A stretch of DNA of 64,000 nucleotides, from positions 2,052,529 through 2,116,528 of the forward strand of contig NZ_CP107030.1 of the NCBI RefSeq assembly GCF_027474825.1. The letters run 5' to 3'. Position 1 is the stretch's first letter. Each line of letters begins with the position of its first letter. Both the position numbers and the translations under genes were made by a program. This DNA is from Maribacter halichondriae (lineage in GTDB: Bacteria > Bacteroidota > Bacteroidia > Flavobacteriales > Flavobacteriaceae). Positions 19,108 to 63,562 of the stretch are shown here, in pieces. Below the pieces are notes generated by a model, which worked only from the letters and a program-made list of their open reading frames with translations, did no database searches and was not told the origin of the DNA.

Positions 19108-19860
19108 ATGCTTAAAATAAAAAACCTGCACGCCAGTGTAGAAGATAAAGAAATATTAAAAGGAATAAACCTTGAGGTAAACGCAGGTGAGGTACATGCG
19201 ATAATGGGCCCGAATGGTTCTGGCAAAAGTACATTGGCCGCTGTTATCGCTGGAAAGGAAGAATTCGAAGTCACCAAAGGATCTATAGAACTCGAAGGCG
19301 AGGATTTAGAAGATGCTTCCCCTGAGGAACGGGCCCACAAGGGTATTTTTCTATCGTTTCAATATCCGGTGGAAATTCCCGGAGTTTCTGTGACCAATTT
19401 TATGAAAACCGCCATCAACGAAACCCGAAAGGCAAAGGGACTCGAAGATATGCCAGCCAATCAGATGTTGAAGCTCATCCGTGAGAAATCGGAGATGTTG
19501 GATATCGATCGTAAATTCTTGTCCCGTTCATTGAACGAAGGTTTTTCAGGTGGGGAGAAGAAGCGGAACGAAATTTTTCAATTGGCCATGTTGGAACCAA
19601 AGCTAGCGATATTGGACGAAACCGATTCCGGACTCGATATCGACGCCCTAAGAATCGTTGCCAATGGAGTCAATAAATTGAAAAGCAAGGAGAATGCGGT
19701 CATCGTGATTACCCATTATCAAAGGCTCTTGGAATATATTGTCCCCGATTTTGTACATGTGCTCCATGATGGTAAAATCGTAAAATCGGGTGGTAAAGAA
19801 CTTGCATTCGAGCTTGAAGAGAAGGGTTACGATTGGATTAAACAGGAAACTGTGGTTTAG
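19108..19860 (+). CDS. sufC: Fe-S cluster assembly ATPase SufC
   Basis: ABC-type ATPase of the SufBC2D complex; ATP binding drives rearrangement of the scaffold. Walker A GPNGSGKST, Q-loop LSFQYP, signature SGGEKKRNE, Walker B LAILDETDSGLD and switch His in VITHYQR are all present. 250 residues, normal length. The stop codon TAG directly abuts the left heptad array of the inserted S23 cassette, which separates sufC from sufD by 467 bases. Confidence 0.97.
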   Translation: MLKIKNLHASVEDKEILKGINLEVNAGEVHAIMGPNGSGKSTLAAVIAGKEEFEVTKGSIELEGEDLEDASPEERAHKGIFLSFQYPVEIPGVSVTNFMKTAINETRKAKGLEDMPANQMLKLIREKSEMLDIDRKFLSRSLNEGFSGGEKKRNEIFQLAMLEPKLAILDETDSGLDIDALRIVANGVNKLKSKENAVIVITHYQRLLEYIVPDFVHVLHDGKIVKSGGKELAFELEEKGYDWIKQETVV

Positions 19861-19890
19861 TTTCAGGTTTCTTGTTTCTGTTGTTTCAGG
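19861..19890 (+). repeat. Left heptad array of the S23 cassette in suf
   Basis: Four copies of a 7-base unit starting TTTC: TTTCAGG at 19861, TTTCTTG at 19868, TTTCTGT at 19875 and, after two bases, TTTCAGG at 19884. The unit is the reverse complement of the CCTGAAA-type unit at the other end of the gene, so the two arrays are inverted relative to each other. It starts at the base after the sufC stop and ends two bases before the S23 ATG. Confidence 0.8.
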
Positions 19891-19892
19891 TT

Positions 19893-20300
19893 ATGGCTAC
19901 GATAAAACGTTTTGAGGATTTGGAAATATGGCAAGAAGCCAGAAGACTTTCGAAAGAAATTATAAAGCTGTCAAGATCAACTGATTTAAAAAATGATTTT
20001 AAGTTACGAGAACAGATCAAAAGTTCTTCGGGTTCGGTAATGGATAATATCGCCGAAGGTTTTGAAAGAGACGGAAATATTGAGTTTAGACAGTTTTTAT
20101 CAACAGCCAAGGCATCCGCGGGCGAATCAAGATCACAGTTGTACCGGCTTTTTGATAATGATTATATCAAACAAGATGAATTGCAAAAATTAGCTTCGGA
20201 ATATGAAACCCTGAGTAGAAGAATCGCAAACTTCATCAACTATTTGAACAAAAAAGATTTCAAGGGAACAAAGTTTAGGCACAACGAAGCTGAAACTTGA
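19893..20300 (+). CDS. S23-type four-helix bundle protein (23S rRNA IVP family) inside the suf operon
   Basis: A 135-residue all-helical protein of the 23S rRNA intervening-sequence/avd-like family. Family features seen: KRFEDLEIWQEARRLSKEI at the N-terminus, LREQIKSSSGSVMDNIAEGFERD (the NIAEG core), FRQFLSTAKASAGESRSQL. Members form pentameric bundles with a positive surface and are thought to bind nucleic acid; no enzyme activity is known. No 23S rRNA is nearby. The start is the ATG before ATIKRF; a TTG-started extension at 19872 would translate the repeat array. The last residues (EAET) and the stop lie inside the right heptad array. The gene splits sufC from sufD, which are normally adjacent, so it is an insertion. 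Confidence 0.9.
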   Translation: MATIKRFEDLEIWQEARRLSKEIIKLSRSTDLKNDFKLREQIKSSSGSVMDNIAEGFERDGNIEFRQFLSTAKASAGESRSQLYRLFDNDYIKQDELQKLASEYETLSRRIANFINYLNKKDFKGTKFRHNEAET

Positions 20301-20318
20301 AACTTGAAACCTGAAACT
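20291..20318 (+). repeat. Right heptad array of the S23 cassette in suf
   Basis: Four head-to-tail heptamers in perfect register: TGAAACT, TGAAACT, TGAAACC, TGAAACT. The S23 stop codon TGA is the first three bases of the second unit. The array ends 9 bases before the sufD ATG and is inverted relative to the array at 19861-19890. Confidence 0.85.
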
Positions 20319-20327
20319 TTTTTAAAG

Positions 20328-48548: not shown

Positions 48549-49580
48549 CTAGGGAGCTTCTTTCCACTCCTTCACAGCATCAATAAAAGCCTTCGCATTT
48601 TCAACGGGAATATTGGGCAGAATACCGTGCCCTAGGTTTACCACATACTTATCCTTCCCAAATTCATGGATCATTTGGGTAACCATCTTTTTGATTTCGG
48701 AAGGAGGTGACAATAGCCTAGCCGGATCGAAGTTGCCCTGAAGTGTGATATTCCCTCCGGTCAAATACCTGGCATTGCGTGCGGAGCACGTCCAATCGAC
48801 CCCAAGGGCGGAAGCTCCTGATTTTGCCATATCGCCCAGGGCGAACCAACAACCTTTTCCGAAAACGATAACCGGGGATTCGTCTTTTAAAGCATCGATA
48901 ATCTGTTGAATGTACTGCCAAGAGAACTCTTTATAATCGCTTGGGGATAACATACCTCCCCAAGAATCGAAAACCTGGACGGCATTGACACCAGCTTTGA
49001 CTTTGGCCTTCAGATAAGCAATTGTCGTATCGGTAATCTTTTGCAACATCTCATGGGCAACTACAGGTTGTGTGAAACAAAACTCCTTGGCCTTGTCAAA
49101 GGTCTTACTGCCTTGGCCTTGGGTTGTGTAGCACAATATGGTCCACGGTGAACCGGCAAAGCCAATAAGCGGCACTTCATCGTTCAACTTTTCTTTTGTC
49201 GCCTTAATGGCCTGCATAACATAATCAAGTTCTTCATTAACATCGGGAACGATAACGCGATCCACTCCTTTTTCATCTCGAACAGGATTTGGCAAATACG
49301 GTCCGAAGTTGGGTTTCATTTGTACCTCGATGCCCATTGCTTGAGGAATTACCAGAATATCGGAAAAAAGAATAGCGGCATCCATACCATATCTACGGAT
49401 GGGCTGTACCGTGATTTCTGAAGCCAATTCAGGAGTTTGACAGCGTGTGAAGAAATCATATTTCTCCTTGATTTCCATAAATTCAGGAAGATAACGGCCG
49501 GCTTGGCGCATCATCCAAACTGGTGGGCGGTCTACGGTTTCGCCTTTTAGGGCTCTTAGGAATAGGTCGTTTTTTATCAT
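48549..49580 (-). CDS. hemE: Uroporphyrinogen decarboxylase
   Basis: Removes four carboxyl groups from uroporphyrinogen III to give coproporphyrinogen III. 343 residues. Signature [17 protein letters not shown], second signature [17 protein letters not shown], and [13 protein letters not shown], ending [19 protein letters not shown]. The ATG is only three bases from the end of a heptad array of the S23 cassette; the array contains the likely TAAAA ribosome-site equivalent. Upstream, the S23 gene separates it from hemCD. Confidence 0.97.
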
Positions 49581-49583
49581 ACT

Positions 49584-49618
49584 TGGCAGATAGCTTTTAG
49601 CCTTAGGCTATTGGCTAT
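49584..49618 (-). repeat. Left (3') heptad array of the S23 cassette in hem
   Basis: Five degenerate 7-base units on the plus strand: TGGCAGA, TAGCTTT, TAGCCTT, AGGCTAT, TGGCTAT. They resemble the reverse complement of the ACAGCCA units at 49974-50008. The S23 stop codon (at 49608-49610) lies inside the array, and the hemE ATG begins just after it. Confidence 0.7.
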
Positions 49619-49967
49619 TTTTGATTTTACGAATTAGACTATTTAGCATTTTTGCCTCTTTATCGAGAAGGTCAAATGCACTTTTCAAACCTTCTTTAGA
49701 AATAAAACCCAATTCAACTGCTATAATAAGTTGGGTCTCTACTTCAAAAAGAGAACCTATTGCAATTTCCAAAAAACGTTTGAATTCTATTTCACTATTT
49801 CTGCTACACCCTTCGGCAATATTTGAGGGAATGGACACGGCCGCTCGTGTAACTTGACTACGAAGGCCGAATTTTTCTTGAGCAGGCAGCTTATCGGATA
49901 ATTTATAAATTTCTTTAACGATTTGAATGCCGTTCTTCCAGATATCGAGTTTTCTAAAATCTCTCAT
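49608..49967 (-). CDS. S23-type four-helix bundle protein inside the hem operon
   Basis: A 119-residue helical protein of the same family as 19893-20300: FRKLDIWKNGIQIVKEIYKLS, LRSQVTRAAVSIPSNIAEGCSRN (NIAEG core) and EFKRFLEIAIGSLFEVETQLI. Only the motif skeleton is shared between the two, so they are different subfamilies, not a recent copy. C-terminal KIKNSQ and the stop fall inside the heptad array. It splits hemCD from hemE. Likely an insertion carried with its flanking arrays; the molecular role is unknown, nucleic-acid binding being the family precedent. Confidence 0.9.
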   Translation of the reverse strand: MRDFRKLDIWKNGIQIVKEIYKLSDKLPAQEKFGLRSQVTRAAVSIPSNIAEGCSRNSEIEFKRFLEIAIGSLFEVETQLIIAVELGFISKEGLKSAFDLLDKEAKMLNSLIRKIKNSQ

Positions 49968-49973
49968 ACTTTA

Positions 49974-50008
49974 TTTGCCAACAGCCAACAGCCAACAGCC
50001 AACAGCTA
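49974..50008 (-). repeat. Right (5') heptad array of the S23 cassette in hem
   Basis: TTTGCCA then three perfect ACAGCCA units and one ACAGCTA, head to tail, on the plus strand. The hemCD stop TAG (complement of CTA at 50006-50008) is formed by the last unit. Unit length is 7, as in the suf cassette, with an unrelated unit sequence. Confidence 0.85.
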
Positions 50009-51586
50009 ACTTCTATAACTTTCATTAACCAACTCGATCAAACTTTCCACATCGGGAATTTTCGCCACTCGAACATCATCAAAATGCTTTCGCGCCTCGT
50101 TGGCGGTGGTCTCCCCGATACAGTAGGCGATCTTATCAGGCTTATTCTTTAACAAATAACTCTCGACGGTAGACGGACTAAAAAATAGAACCCCTTTTAC
50201 GGTATCATCGATTTTTGAAGGGGAATGTTTGGTCTCGTACGCCTCGATTTCAGTTACCTCAATATTATTTTCTGTCAAGATATTTGGTAAATCCTCCATT
50301 CGCAAATTGCTGCAAAAATAGGTTACCCCCAATCCTTCTATATATTCGACTAAATATTCGGCCAGTTTTTTTGCATTTTTTTCTTGATGTTTTACCGGAC
50401 CTATACGGCGTTCTATCAAGCGTTTGGTCTTTCGCCCAACGCAATAGATATTTTTGAAGTTCAATTGATCGGCGCTTACGTTCGATAAGATGGCCTCGAC
50501 CGCATTTTGACTGGTAATAATCACGTTCGTCATTTCTCGTTTCAACACGGCGGTGGAAATACGGTTCGGACTTATCTTGATAAAGTCGTCGGATTTGACC
50601 CGAATACCATTATTGAATGTCTGTAGCTGATCGGAAGTCAGTTTTTTGGTCGAAAAAATTTGGGCGCCGATGTTCACTCCGACCAATTTGTTCATCAAGG
50701 CCTTCCCACCACGACTTAGCATACTGTTTGCGCAGTCACGGCCGAGATTTTCGTGTTTTCCGATAGGAGCTTTAAATTCGGCTTCCAATTTTTTGCTTCC
50801 GTCAACGGTTAAAAGCACACCCTTTAAGGTTATTTCGTCTTCTTTGTCGATGGTCGCAAGGGCACCGATGGGAGCAGTACATCCTCCTTCCAAAATACGT
50901 AGAAATTCACGCTCTAGTTTGGTACAGATGGCCGTCGGTTCGTGATTGAGTTCTGAGCAAGCATCTCGTACAAAATCATCGTTCTCCATGGCTACGACCA
51001 TGATCGCACCCTGCGCCGGTGCGGGCACCATCCAGGTGAGTCCGATGGTGTTTTCAGGTTCAAGCCCGATACGTTCGAGTCCGGCAGCGGCAAAAATGGC
51101 ACCGTTCCAATCGTTATTTTTTAATTTTTCATAGCGACTGTTTACATTGCCCCGTAGATCGACAACGGTATGGGTTGGGTAGCGGTTGAGCCATTGTGCT
51201 TTACGGCGCTGGCTTCCGGTAGCGATAATAGCTTCACGTTGTGCCAAAAATTCCTCGTTTTTTTTGAAGGCAAGAATATCCCAATAGTTAGCGCGTTCCA
51301 AGACGGCGGCCTGAACGATACCTTGAGGAAGTGCCGTTGGTACATCCTTCATAGAATGCACGGCAATATCGATTTCGCCTTTGAGCATCGCAACATCCAA
51401 GGTTTTGGTAAAAATGCCTGTTATGCCGAGTTCATAAAGGGGTTTGTCGAGCACAAGGTCTCCGGTAGCTTTCACGGGAACAAGCTCGGTCTTATGACCT
51501 AGCGCTTCCAATTGCGATTTAACGGTGTTTGCTTGCCATAACGCCAATTCGCTATCGCGGGTGCCAATGCGTATGACCTTGCTCAT
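50006..51586 (-). CDS. hemCD: Fused hydroxymethylbilane synthase / uroporphyrinogen III synthase
   Basis: 526-residue bifunctional enzyme, the third and fourth steps of tetrapyrrole synthesis. HemC part (residues 1-300): IRIGTRDSELALWQA, VHSMKDVPTALP and the dipyrromethane-cofactor Cys in EGGCTAPIGALA. HemD part (about 315-526): TAVLKREMTNVIITSQNAVEAIL, VGRKTKRLIERRIGP, YFCSNLRMEDLP and VLFFSPSTVESYL. The fusion appears standard in related Flavobacteria. Its start overlaps hemA by four bases; its stop lies in the S23 heptad array, so the last codon comes from the repeat. Confidence 0.95.
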   Translation of the reverse strand: MSKVIRIGTRDSELALWQANTVKSQLEALGHKTELVPVKATGDLVLDKPLYELGITGIFTKTLDVAMLKGEIDIAVHSMKDVPTALPQGIVQAAVLERANYWDILAFKKNEEFLAQREAIIATGSQRRKAQWLNRYPTHTVVDLRGNVNSRYEKLKNNDWNGAIFAAAGLERIGLEPENTIGLTWMVPAPAQGAIMVVAMENDDFVRDACSELNHEPTAICTKLEREFLRILEGGCTAPIGALATIDKEDEITLKGVLLTVDGSKKLEAEFKAPIGKHENLGRDCANSMLSRGGKALMNKLVGVNIGAQIFSTKKLTSDQLQTFNNGIRVKSDDFIKISPNRISTAVLKREMTNVIITSQNAVEAILSNVSADQLNFKNIYCVGRKTKRLIERRIGPVKHQEKNAKKLAEYLVEYIEGLGVTYFCSNLRMEDLPNILTENNIEVTEIEAYETKHSPSKIDDTVKGVLFFSPSTVESYLLKNKPDKIAYCIGETTANEARKHFDDVRVAKIPDVESLIELVNESYRS

Positions 51587-63500: not shown

Positions 63501-63562
63501 CAGTACACCGTATGTGCAAAATTCACCTTTTCAAAAATCCAACAATCCAACAATCGAACTTG

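Follow-up and report, generated by a model that had tools for sequence, protein, structure and literature searches.

An S23 gene between inverted heptad arrays at the hemCD-hemE junction, and the pairing of S23 lineages with their repeat units

The S23 cassettes of Maribacter halichondriae

In the window, by which we mean the whole 64,000-nucleotide stretch of M. halichondriae contig NZ_CP107030.1 analysed here, two operons are interrupted by a gene of the S23 family. One of these genes lies between hemCD and hemE and the other between sufC and sufD, and both are bordered by short tandem arrays:

48549..49580, minus strand: hemE, uroporphyrinogen decarboxylase, the downstream gene (ORF and profiles)
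49583..49617, minus strand: inverted heptad array downstream of the hem S23 gene, coding-strand TAGCCAA type, degenerate, holding the S23 stop codon (sequence, inverted match)
49608..49967, minus strand: S23 gene, 119-aa four-helix bundle, PF05635 / TIGR02436 (ORF, profiles, AlphaFold, Foldseek)
49974..50010, minus strand: heptad array upstream of the hem S23 gene, coding-strand unit GTTGGCT, holding the hemCD stop codon (sequence, TRF, shuffles)
50006..51586, minus strand: hemCD fusion, porphobilinogen deaminase plus uroporphyrinogen-III synthase, the upstream gene (ORF and profiles)
19860..19892, plus strand: heptad array upstream of the suf S23 gene, unit GTTTCAG, touching the sufC stop codon (sequence)
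19893..20300, plus strand: S23 gene of the suf cassette, between sufC and sufD (ORF and Pfam)
20291..20319, plus strand: inverted heptad array downstream of the suf S23 gene, unit CTGAAAC/TTGAAAC (TRF and sequence)

Letter-by-letter inspection of 49583-50008 confirmed the sequence-only reading of this locus as an S23 gene that splits hemCD from hemE and is flanked by inverted 7-bp arrays. On the plus strand, positions 49974-50008 consist of TTTGCCA, three copies of ACAGCCA and ACAGCTA, while 49583-49617 consist of TTGGCAG, ATAGCTT, TTAGCCT, TAGGCTA and TTGGCTA. TRF reports 49977-50010 with period 7, 4.9 copies and 96% matches. Both stop codons, that of hemCD (50006-50008) and that of S23 (49608-49610), do lie inside an array, as had been claimed. 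The hemE ATG (49578-49580), which had been placed three bases after the array, is found there if the array is taken to start at 49584; counted from the last full unit, the distance is two bases. The arms form 32-nt inverted repeats that are 75% complementary and able to pair. None of 60 shuffles was as good as the array upstream of S23. The hemE-side array is by itself too degenerate for significance, with 27% of the shuffles as good, and when aligned in inverted register with the other arm it scores 16 against a 99% shuffle limit of 14.5. The cassette does not lie inside a 23S rRNA gene. No Rfam match exceeded the gathering score between 48000 and 51000, and a promoter and terminator scan gave nothing beyond chance. 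Outside the cassette, no copy of the hem unit with at most one mismatch was found in the genome, and with two mismatches a control pattern was equally frequent. A separate intergenic 8-bp array (CAACAATC, 3.5 copies) occupies 63532-63559 of the window, with no PF05635 match adjoining it.

The hem and suf proteins match PF05635 with 129 and 108 bits (cut-off 33.8) and TIGR02436 with 123.7 and 100.8 bits (cut-off 24). In Pfam they match PF05635 only, with no transposase and no HUH Y1 transposase domain, and there was no reverse transcriptase among five scanned neighbour proteins of the two genes, all encoded by heme and suf genes. The AlphaFold model of the hem protein has four helices (pLDDT 80.7). 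Foldseek aligned it with the solved S23 proteins 2gsc (E 3e-7, TM 0.83) and 2rld (TM 0.73-0.76) and, more weakly, with Avd, both alone (4dwl) and in the DGR ribonucleoprotein (8ub7, 8ube), at TM 0.72-0.74. Pentamers are known for Avd and for S23 proteins, and the 2gsc and 2rld entries each list five chains.

As had also been read from the letters, the hem and suf cassettes share a common plan with a different unit, GTTTCAG/CTGAAAC in the suf case; their proteins are 37% identical. The genome holds nine S23 matches, two of them with stops, and arrays were recognised by eye beside all nine. Their units differ: on either strand they read GCGTNNA, ACAGCCA, GTGGTTA, AAAAGTA, GTTTCAG, AAGTTGT, ATTCCAA, AGGTACG and the hexamer AAGTAC. 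In a shuffle test, a tandem array was significant on at least one side at eight of the nine loci, the GCGTNNA locus failing, and the other side of the GTGGTTA cassette is degenerate. The sole hexamer case (L009; G000:C1:1200218-1203439) is a broken S23 gene with two stops and the 6-bp units AAGTAC / TTGAAC. In the two congeners, sufC and sufD are separated by spacers of 18 and 27 nt with no S23 gene, that is, by empty sites, and the hem S23 gene is present in both (L012, L014). At about 80% identity, the congeners are too diverged for a target-site duplication to be read.

Heptad arrays at S23 genes and their units

S23 loci from genome searches were taken as the best-scoring matches by bit score. 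Across many phyla, a significant period-7 array lies on at least one side of 229 of 360 S23 loci, as compared with 7 in windows 0.6-0.9 kb away; period 7 is found on both sides of 107 loci, and period 8 on at least one side of 29. These counts include close relatives, so that the loci are not independent. Repeat loci were excluded (6 from this survey and 9 from the 381-cassette analysis described below), together with L460 (strand not assigned) and L400 (partial), and the survey is without L416-L439 and 7 of the 29 viral loci found. On viral contigs, 20 of the 22 S23 loci examined have a period-7 array. Among 206 Bacteroidota loci, a significant tandem period was detected upstream of 100 (75 of period 7, 7 of period 8) and downstream of 121 (87 and 12, respectively), against 17 and 12 in control windows 0.6-0.9 kb off, of which 2 and 2 were of period 7. 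Outside Bacteroidota and allies, period 7 was found upstream of 15 and downstream of 17 of 25 loci, in groups that include Clostridia, Chloroflexi, KSB1, Planctomycetota, a cyanobacterium, Thiohalocapsa and Stenotrophomonas. Period 8 occurs at the S23 genes of a Desulfosarcina and a Methanophagales MAG, and the loci of a Lentisphaerota MAG and of Bowmanella have no clear period 7. Further genomes and plasmids show the same pattern. Some arrays look self-homogenised (for example, L020 and L097).

The gene is co-directional with both neighbouring ORFs at 187 of the 206 Bacteroidota loci, and its neighbours vary: a neighbour family is common to only 1460 of 21115 locus pairs, so most cassettes adjoin different genes. 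Of the 24 records that yielded plasmid S23 genes, 22 have cyanobacterial names; a Calothrix plasmid pair sits in one shared context and thus carries no information on mobility. On the Anabaena sp. 90 plasmid pANA02 (L414), the cas6 and cas4 genes of a type I-D CRISPR operon are separated by an S23 cassette that has CTGTCAC-type heptads downstream. On the Nostoc edaphicum plasmid pNe_5 (L412), the two ribonucleotide reductase genes enclose an S23 gene that has AGTAGGG/CCCTACT arrays and runs antisense to them, which departs from the usual sense orientation.

The unit comparison was restricted to cassettes with a strong array on each side, 78 of the 206. Neither the hem nor the suf cassette of the window reaches that threshold; both are represented by orthologues or relatives. 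In these 78 cassettes, the two arms share their unit at a similarity of 0.74, compared with 0.42 for arms of different cassettes. The inverted arm match exceeds the 95% shuffle limit in 98 of 126 cassettes, and a cassette's own arm is its single best partner in only 28 of the 126.

It had been predicted from the window that an S23 protein would co-vary with its own heptad, and this was found when the comparison was made. For pairs in different gene contexts, unit similarity rises with S23 identity, from 0.41 below 40% identity through 0.42, 0.49, 0.61 (n=99) and 0.68 (n=30) to 0.74 at 60-70% identity (n=16). The 145 pairs with at least 50% identity from different contexts and different genomes have a mean of 0.638, whereas 2000 permutations gave a mean of 0.452 and a maximum of 0.539. 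Unlike S23 proteins of the same genome have units no more alike than background (0.425, n=15, against 0.415 elsewhere), which indicates that the unit goes with the S23 lineage rather than with the genome. Over all phyla, in the 134 of 381 cassettes with strong arrays on both sides and an own-arm similarity of at least 0.5, unit similarity goes from 0.38 (below 35% identity) to 0.95 (above 80%), with gene context uncontrolled. On the S23 tree, the 15 unit types with at least three members (94 of the 134 cassettes) need 34 changes, as compared with at least 64 in each of 100 shuffles, so that the proposed plot of S23 phylogeny against heptad sequence also came out in favour of co-variation. Nor is unit length random: it is 7, with a minority of 8 that likewise tracks the protein. 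For period-8 cassettes, the nearest S23 protein from another genome and context also has period 8 in 10 of 16 cases (shuffles: mean 1.9, maximum 8 in 500 runs). An S23 lineage is thus paired with its unit, a conclusion that we hold with high confidence.

The coupling has its bounds. It appears only above about 45-50% protein identity and is absent below about 45%; the lowest pairs at 50-54% identity score just 0.17-0.37. A Mantel test on raw array alignments of all 206 loci gave a weak rho of 0.058, below the maximum of 0.090 reached in 500 permutations. S23 identity above 70% was found in only 9 different-context pairs, which implies that movement is rare, old or not ordinary transposition.

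Arrays with and without an S23 gene

Among the loci collected here, eight S23 proteins are at least 70% identical to the hem protein. All of them reside at the hemCD-hemE junction, Tamlana and Marixanthotalea being among the several genera represented, and the TTGGCT/AGCCAA word was recognised by eye at all eight. At 55-64% identity, the proteins from Labilibaculum, a Bacteroidales MAG and a KSB1 MAG are accompanied, again by eye, by a TTGGCT/TTAGCT word, and the stretches around these three genes contain no hemE or hemCD match. Exceptions are a Roseivirga protein (58% identity to the hem S23) with GTTTCAA and a Bacteroidota protein (51%) with ACTAGGT. In L278, the Bacteroidales MAG, and in L281, both arms next to the gene have the same orientation and are not inverted. 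At four loci of the hem clade (L079, L128, L157 and L275), arrays in both orientations lie upstream of S23, like a second inverted pair.

In 60 genomes of the window's own family, 30 of 55 hemE matches were read. An S23 gene is present at 2 of the 30 loci, the window included, and inverted heptads that enclose no ORF occupy the hem junction at 3 (L220, L225 and L228, from three other genera). At one locus hemCD was not within reach, and at the remaining 24 there was no S23 gene and no array recognised by eye, 8 of them having at most 20 nt between the genes. M. halichondriae itself has ORF-less heptad arrays between operon genes, at L257:15600-15700 and L257:18820-18860 (both in a ribosomal-protein operon), L259:17280-17395 and L262:11680-11780, positions that we take to be rpsL-rpsG, before rplC, before sucC and leuC-leuD. 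As 3 of the 20 stretches inspected were chosen at known arrays or S23 genes, these finds give no unbiased density. The rpsL-rpsG array combines a GAGGTAC-type with a CTCGAAAC-type arm, and these arms resemble two different S23 cassettes of the genome.

Dispersed arrays were counted in the Xanthomonas/Stenotrophomonas family. The accessible text of PMC4692102 gives 186 and 183 GGGAATC-type arrays for two Xanthomonas genomes, with 70 and 75 convergent inverted pairs. In this family, many S23 genes are followed by roughly four units of the AATCCCG type and preceded by one to four GGGANT words. GGGACCG, GGGAATA or GTGAATC stands beside others, and no clear array was recognised at some. Taking the stop codon as the start, period 7 was detected downstream of only 10 of 49 genes (upstream, 21 of 49), and downstream arrays were therefore read from the end of the S23 domain. 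Many of the S23 ORFs in L448-L497 are 118-152 aa long, and some of the frames seem to enter the downstream array.

Matches to three GGGANTN units had a median of 86.5 in 84 S23-positive genomes and of 0 in 114 S23-negative genomes of the family, in a comparison that ignores kinship. With kinship likewise ignored, at least 100 matches were found in 41 of 84 positive and 1 of 114 negative genomes, and at least one match in 72 of 84 and 31 of 114, respectively. The exceptions are 8 negative genomes with at least 30 matches and 12 positive genomes with none. In 47 S23-positive genomes whose S23 flanks were compared, again with kinship ignored, the median number of matches was 353 where three or more GGGANT units lie next to S23 (n=27) and 31.5 in the others (n=20), five of which have zero. 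In 400 kb of one genome (G636), 18 of 34 arrays form 9 convergent ORF-less pairs in the same orientation as the S23 cassette, no divergent neighbour arrays were found within 350 bp, and the 9 interiors showed no blastn similarity to one another (E <= 1e-3). Several ORF-less GGGANT pairs of this genome (L533, L539) have a like inner edge, GGAAAAGC...GCTTTTCC, around unrelated interiors. That S23 acts in trans on such dispersed arrays seems to us slightly better supported than the opposite.

Recognition of the unit and competing explanations

The reading that we favour, with a probability of about 0.6, is that the S23 protein, a four-helix bundle resembling Avd, recognises its own heptad and acts on the arrays in cis and in trans, either driving or maintaining them. 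A cassette would then be one copy of a two-part system: heptad arrays plus the S23 protein that recognises them. The protein may bind the repeated unit multivalently, and that it binds the unit directly we consider quite probable. Its target would probably be double-stranded DNA, as inverted arms offer an identical site at both ends and bear no signature of base pairing. In their behaviour the arrays may resemble the ends of an element that is mobile or propagates itself, and S23 could work in trans on ORF-less arrays in the manner of autonomous and non-autonomous elements; the cassette or its arrays may thus be mobile. The gene would depend on read-through transcription from the host operon, a need that would explain its sense orientation.

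The main rival is an RNA element resembling the intervening sequences (IVS) of 23S rRNA, in which the arrays pair in the transcript, RNase III cuts, and S23 is a passenger or a hairpin binder. In the accessible portion of PMC4990558, the Coxiella burnetii IVS is described as having three GACAGAT heptamers ahead of its S23 ORF and as being excised by RNase III. This rival also draws on the predominant sense orientation of S23, on its resemblance to Avd, which is part of a DGR ribonucleoprotein, and on the RNA fold of the hem cassette, which pairs the arrays with a z of -2.69 (1 of 100 shuffles as good). Yet mismatches between arms show no wobble bias. Transitions compatible with GU pairing numbered 207 against 267 incompatible ones in 186 cassettes, and 123 against 172 in 113 cassettes. 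When the units of one arm were put in permuted order, the match dropped only slightly, from 14.2 to 13.3 (p<=0.05 in 5 of 49), and pairing alone leaves the coupling of unit and protein unexplained. Tests of selection for an RNA duplex thus gave it no support, as the wobble asymmetry runs the opposite way and permuting the units costs little. For the same reasons, cleavage at the array hairpin, which the sequence-only reading had envisaged, finds no support in the substitution pattern. Each arm seems to keep to the unit rather than to its partner. The missing wobble bias and the low cost of scrambling favour recognition of double-stranded DNA, leaving the RNA element as an unlikely explanation, albeit the strongest competitor.

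Recognition would not be needed if the arrays simply moved or were inherited with the S23 gene and diverged alongside it. The arrays do directly adjoin the gene, and units become less alike as the proteins diverge. However, fourfold sites of the S23 genes are saturated (identity 0.31-0.35 in every bin) where units are still up to 0.74 alike; unconstrained arrays should be random by then, which argues for constraint and makes linkage alone hard to uphold. Distant, dispersed arrays also accompany S23 and its unit. Mere linkage is therefore improbable in our view. Ordinary replication slippage, creating heptads anywhere with S23 incidental, would suit the variable array lengths and the self-homogenised arrays, but it is very improbable given the near absence of period 7 from the control windows, the copying of one unit in both arms and the median of zero matches in S23-negative genomes of the Xanthomonas family. 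Equally improbable is a host regulatory module in which S23 on the arrays controls the downstream gene (here hemE) and is kept vertically for that purpose: the hem cassette is retained at hemCD-hemE in several genera and two or three bases separate an array from the hemE start, yet the suf site is empty in both congeners, S23 is upstream of hemE at only 2 of the 30 loci read, most cassettes have different neighbours, and the S23 copy number varies from 0 to 16 among 149 genomes of the own family.

Several known systems resemble these cassettes in part. The Coxiella IVS is alike in its S23 family, in an ORF lying in sense within inverted repeats and in heptamers just before the ATG (PMC4990558, accessible portion); the hem cassette differs in lying between protein genes of an operon and in having arrays on both sides. 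That portion of the paper regards the heptamers as strain variation and does not tie the unit to the protein. Among the open-access papers that our searches listed, it is the only one found to join S23 and heptamers. Among the same papers, we found no description of a pairing between S23 and its unit or of a link between S23 and dispersed heptads. The Xanthomonas GGGAATC and Nostoc GGGGA(C/T)T repeats are likewise heptads, often in convergent inverted pairs in Xanthomonas, and the GGGANT word also occurs beside S23 genes of that family; the accessible text of PMC4692102 views them as G-quadruplex repeats and proposes no protein partner. The Beggiatoaceae TAACTGA repeats are similar as intergenic heptanucleotide arrays near start codons but are mostly direct repeats, and S23 goes unmentioned in the searchable text of PMC4679880. 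In 229 genomes of the class of Thiohalocapsa, three tandem copies of TAACTGA were found in 1 genome.

In REPIN/RAYT systems, one gene is accompanied by its own short inverted repeats and by many ORF-less copies, and the S23 cassette has a similar working plan. RAYTs are HUH transposases, unlike S23, which matches only PF05635; its repeats also differ in being heptad arrays, and the interiors of the pairs are unique. The likeness to DGRs lies in the Avd fold, and the lack of a reverse transcriptase among the scanned hem and suf neighbours sets the cassettes apart from them. We know of no heptads in DGRs. Homology of S23 and Avd is noted in the available part of PMC10053308. With transposons and MITEs the cassettes share inverted terminal repeats (not in L278 and L281) and the empty sufC-sufD sites of the congeners. 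They differ in that the interiors of the non-autonomous pairs in the 400 kb of G636 share no sequence, an outcome not predicted by a simple model of deletion derivatives (MITEs).

Heptanucleotide repeats are the commonest long simple repeats in most genomes surveyed, and slippage has been proposed as their source (Mrazek 2007, as cited in the accessible text of PMC4679880). It could as easily prove right as wrong that S23 proteins are the missing partners of these repeats, each using a few variable residues to read a word of its own, 7 bp (or 8 bp) long, and making or maintaining hundreds of arrays genome-wide. If so, the intervening sequences of rRNA, the S23 cassettes of operons and the dispersed heptads of Xanthomonas, Nostoc and others would be one selfish, protein-coded repeat system, and the cassettes may help to explain the decades-old puzzle of bacterial 7-letter repeats. 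S23 genes are widespread and of unknown function, and tying them to heptads merges two puzzles into one testable question. Such a tie would also provide a library of naturally paired proteins and 7-mers, from which a residue-to-base code might be read.

For such a code the data are suggestive only. Alignment column 127 (K103 in the hem protein) was the best by partial correlation, with r of 0.233 against a permutation 95% limit of 0.172. In a mutual-information scan of 825 tests, this column was outside the top 15, and the 7 independent pairs with support split into 2.0 for, 0.2 against and 4.8 neutral (median p 0.5). In the 120 of 134 cassettes with a clear base and residue, the G of the unit is preceded by A in 69 of 85 cases with E, Q or D at column 127, as compared with 8 of 35 with other residues; with redundancy removed (72 representatives), the proportions are 28 of 40 and 6 of 24.
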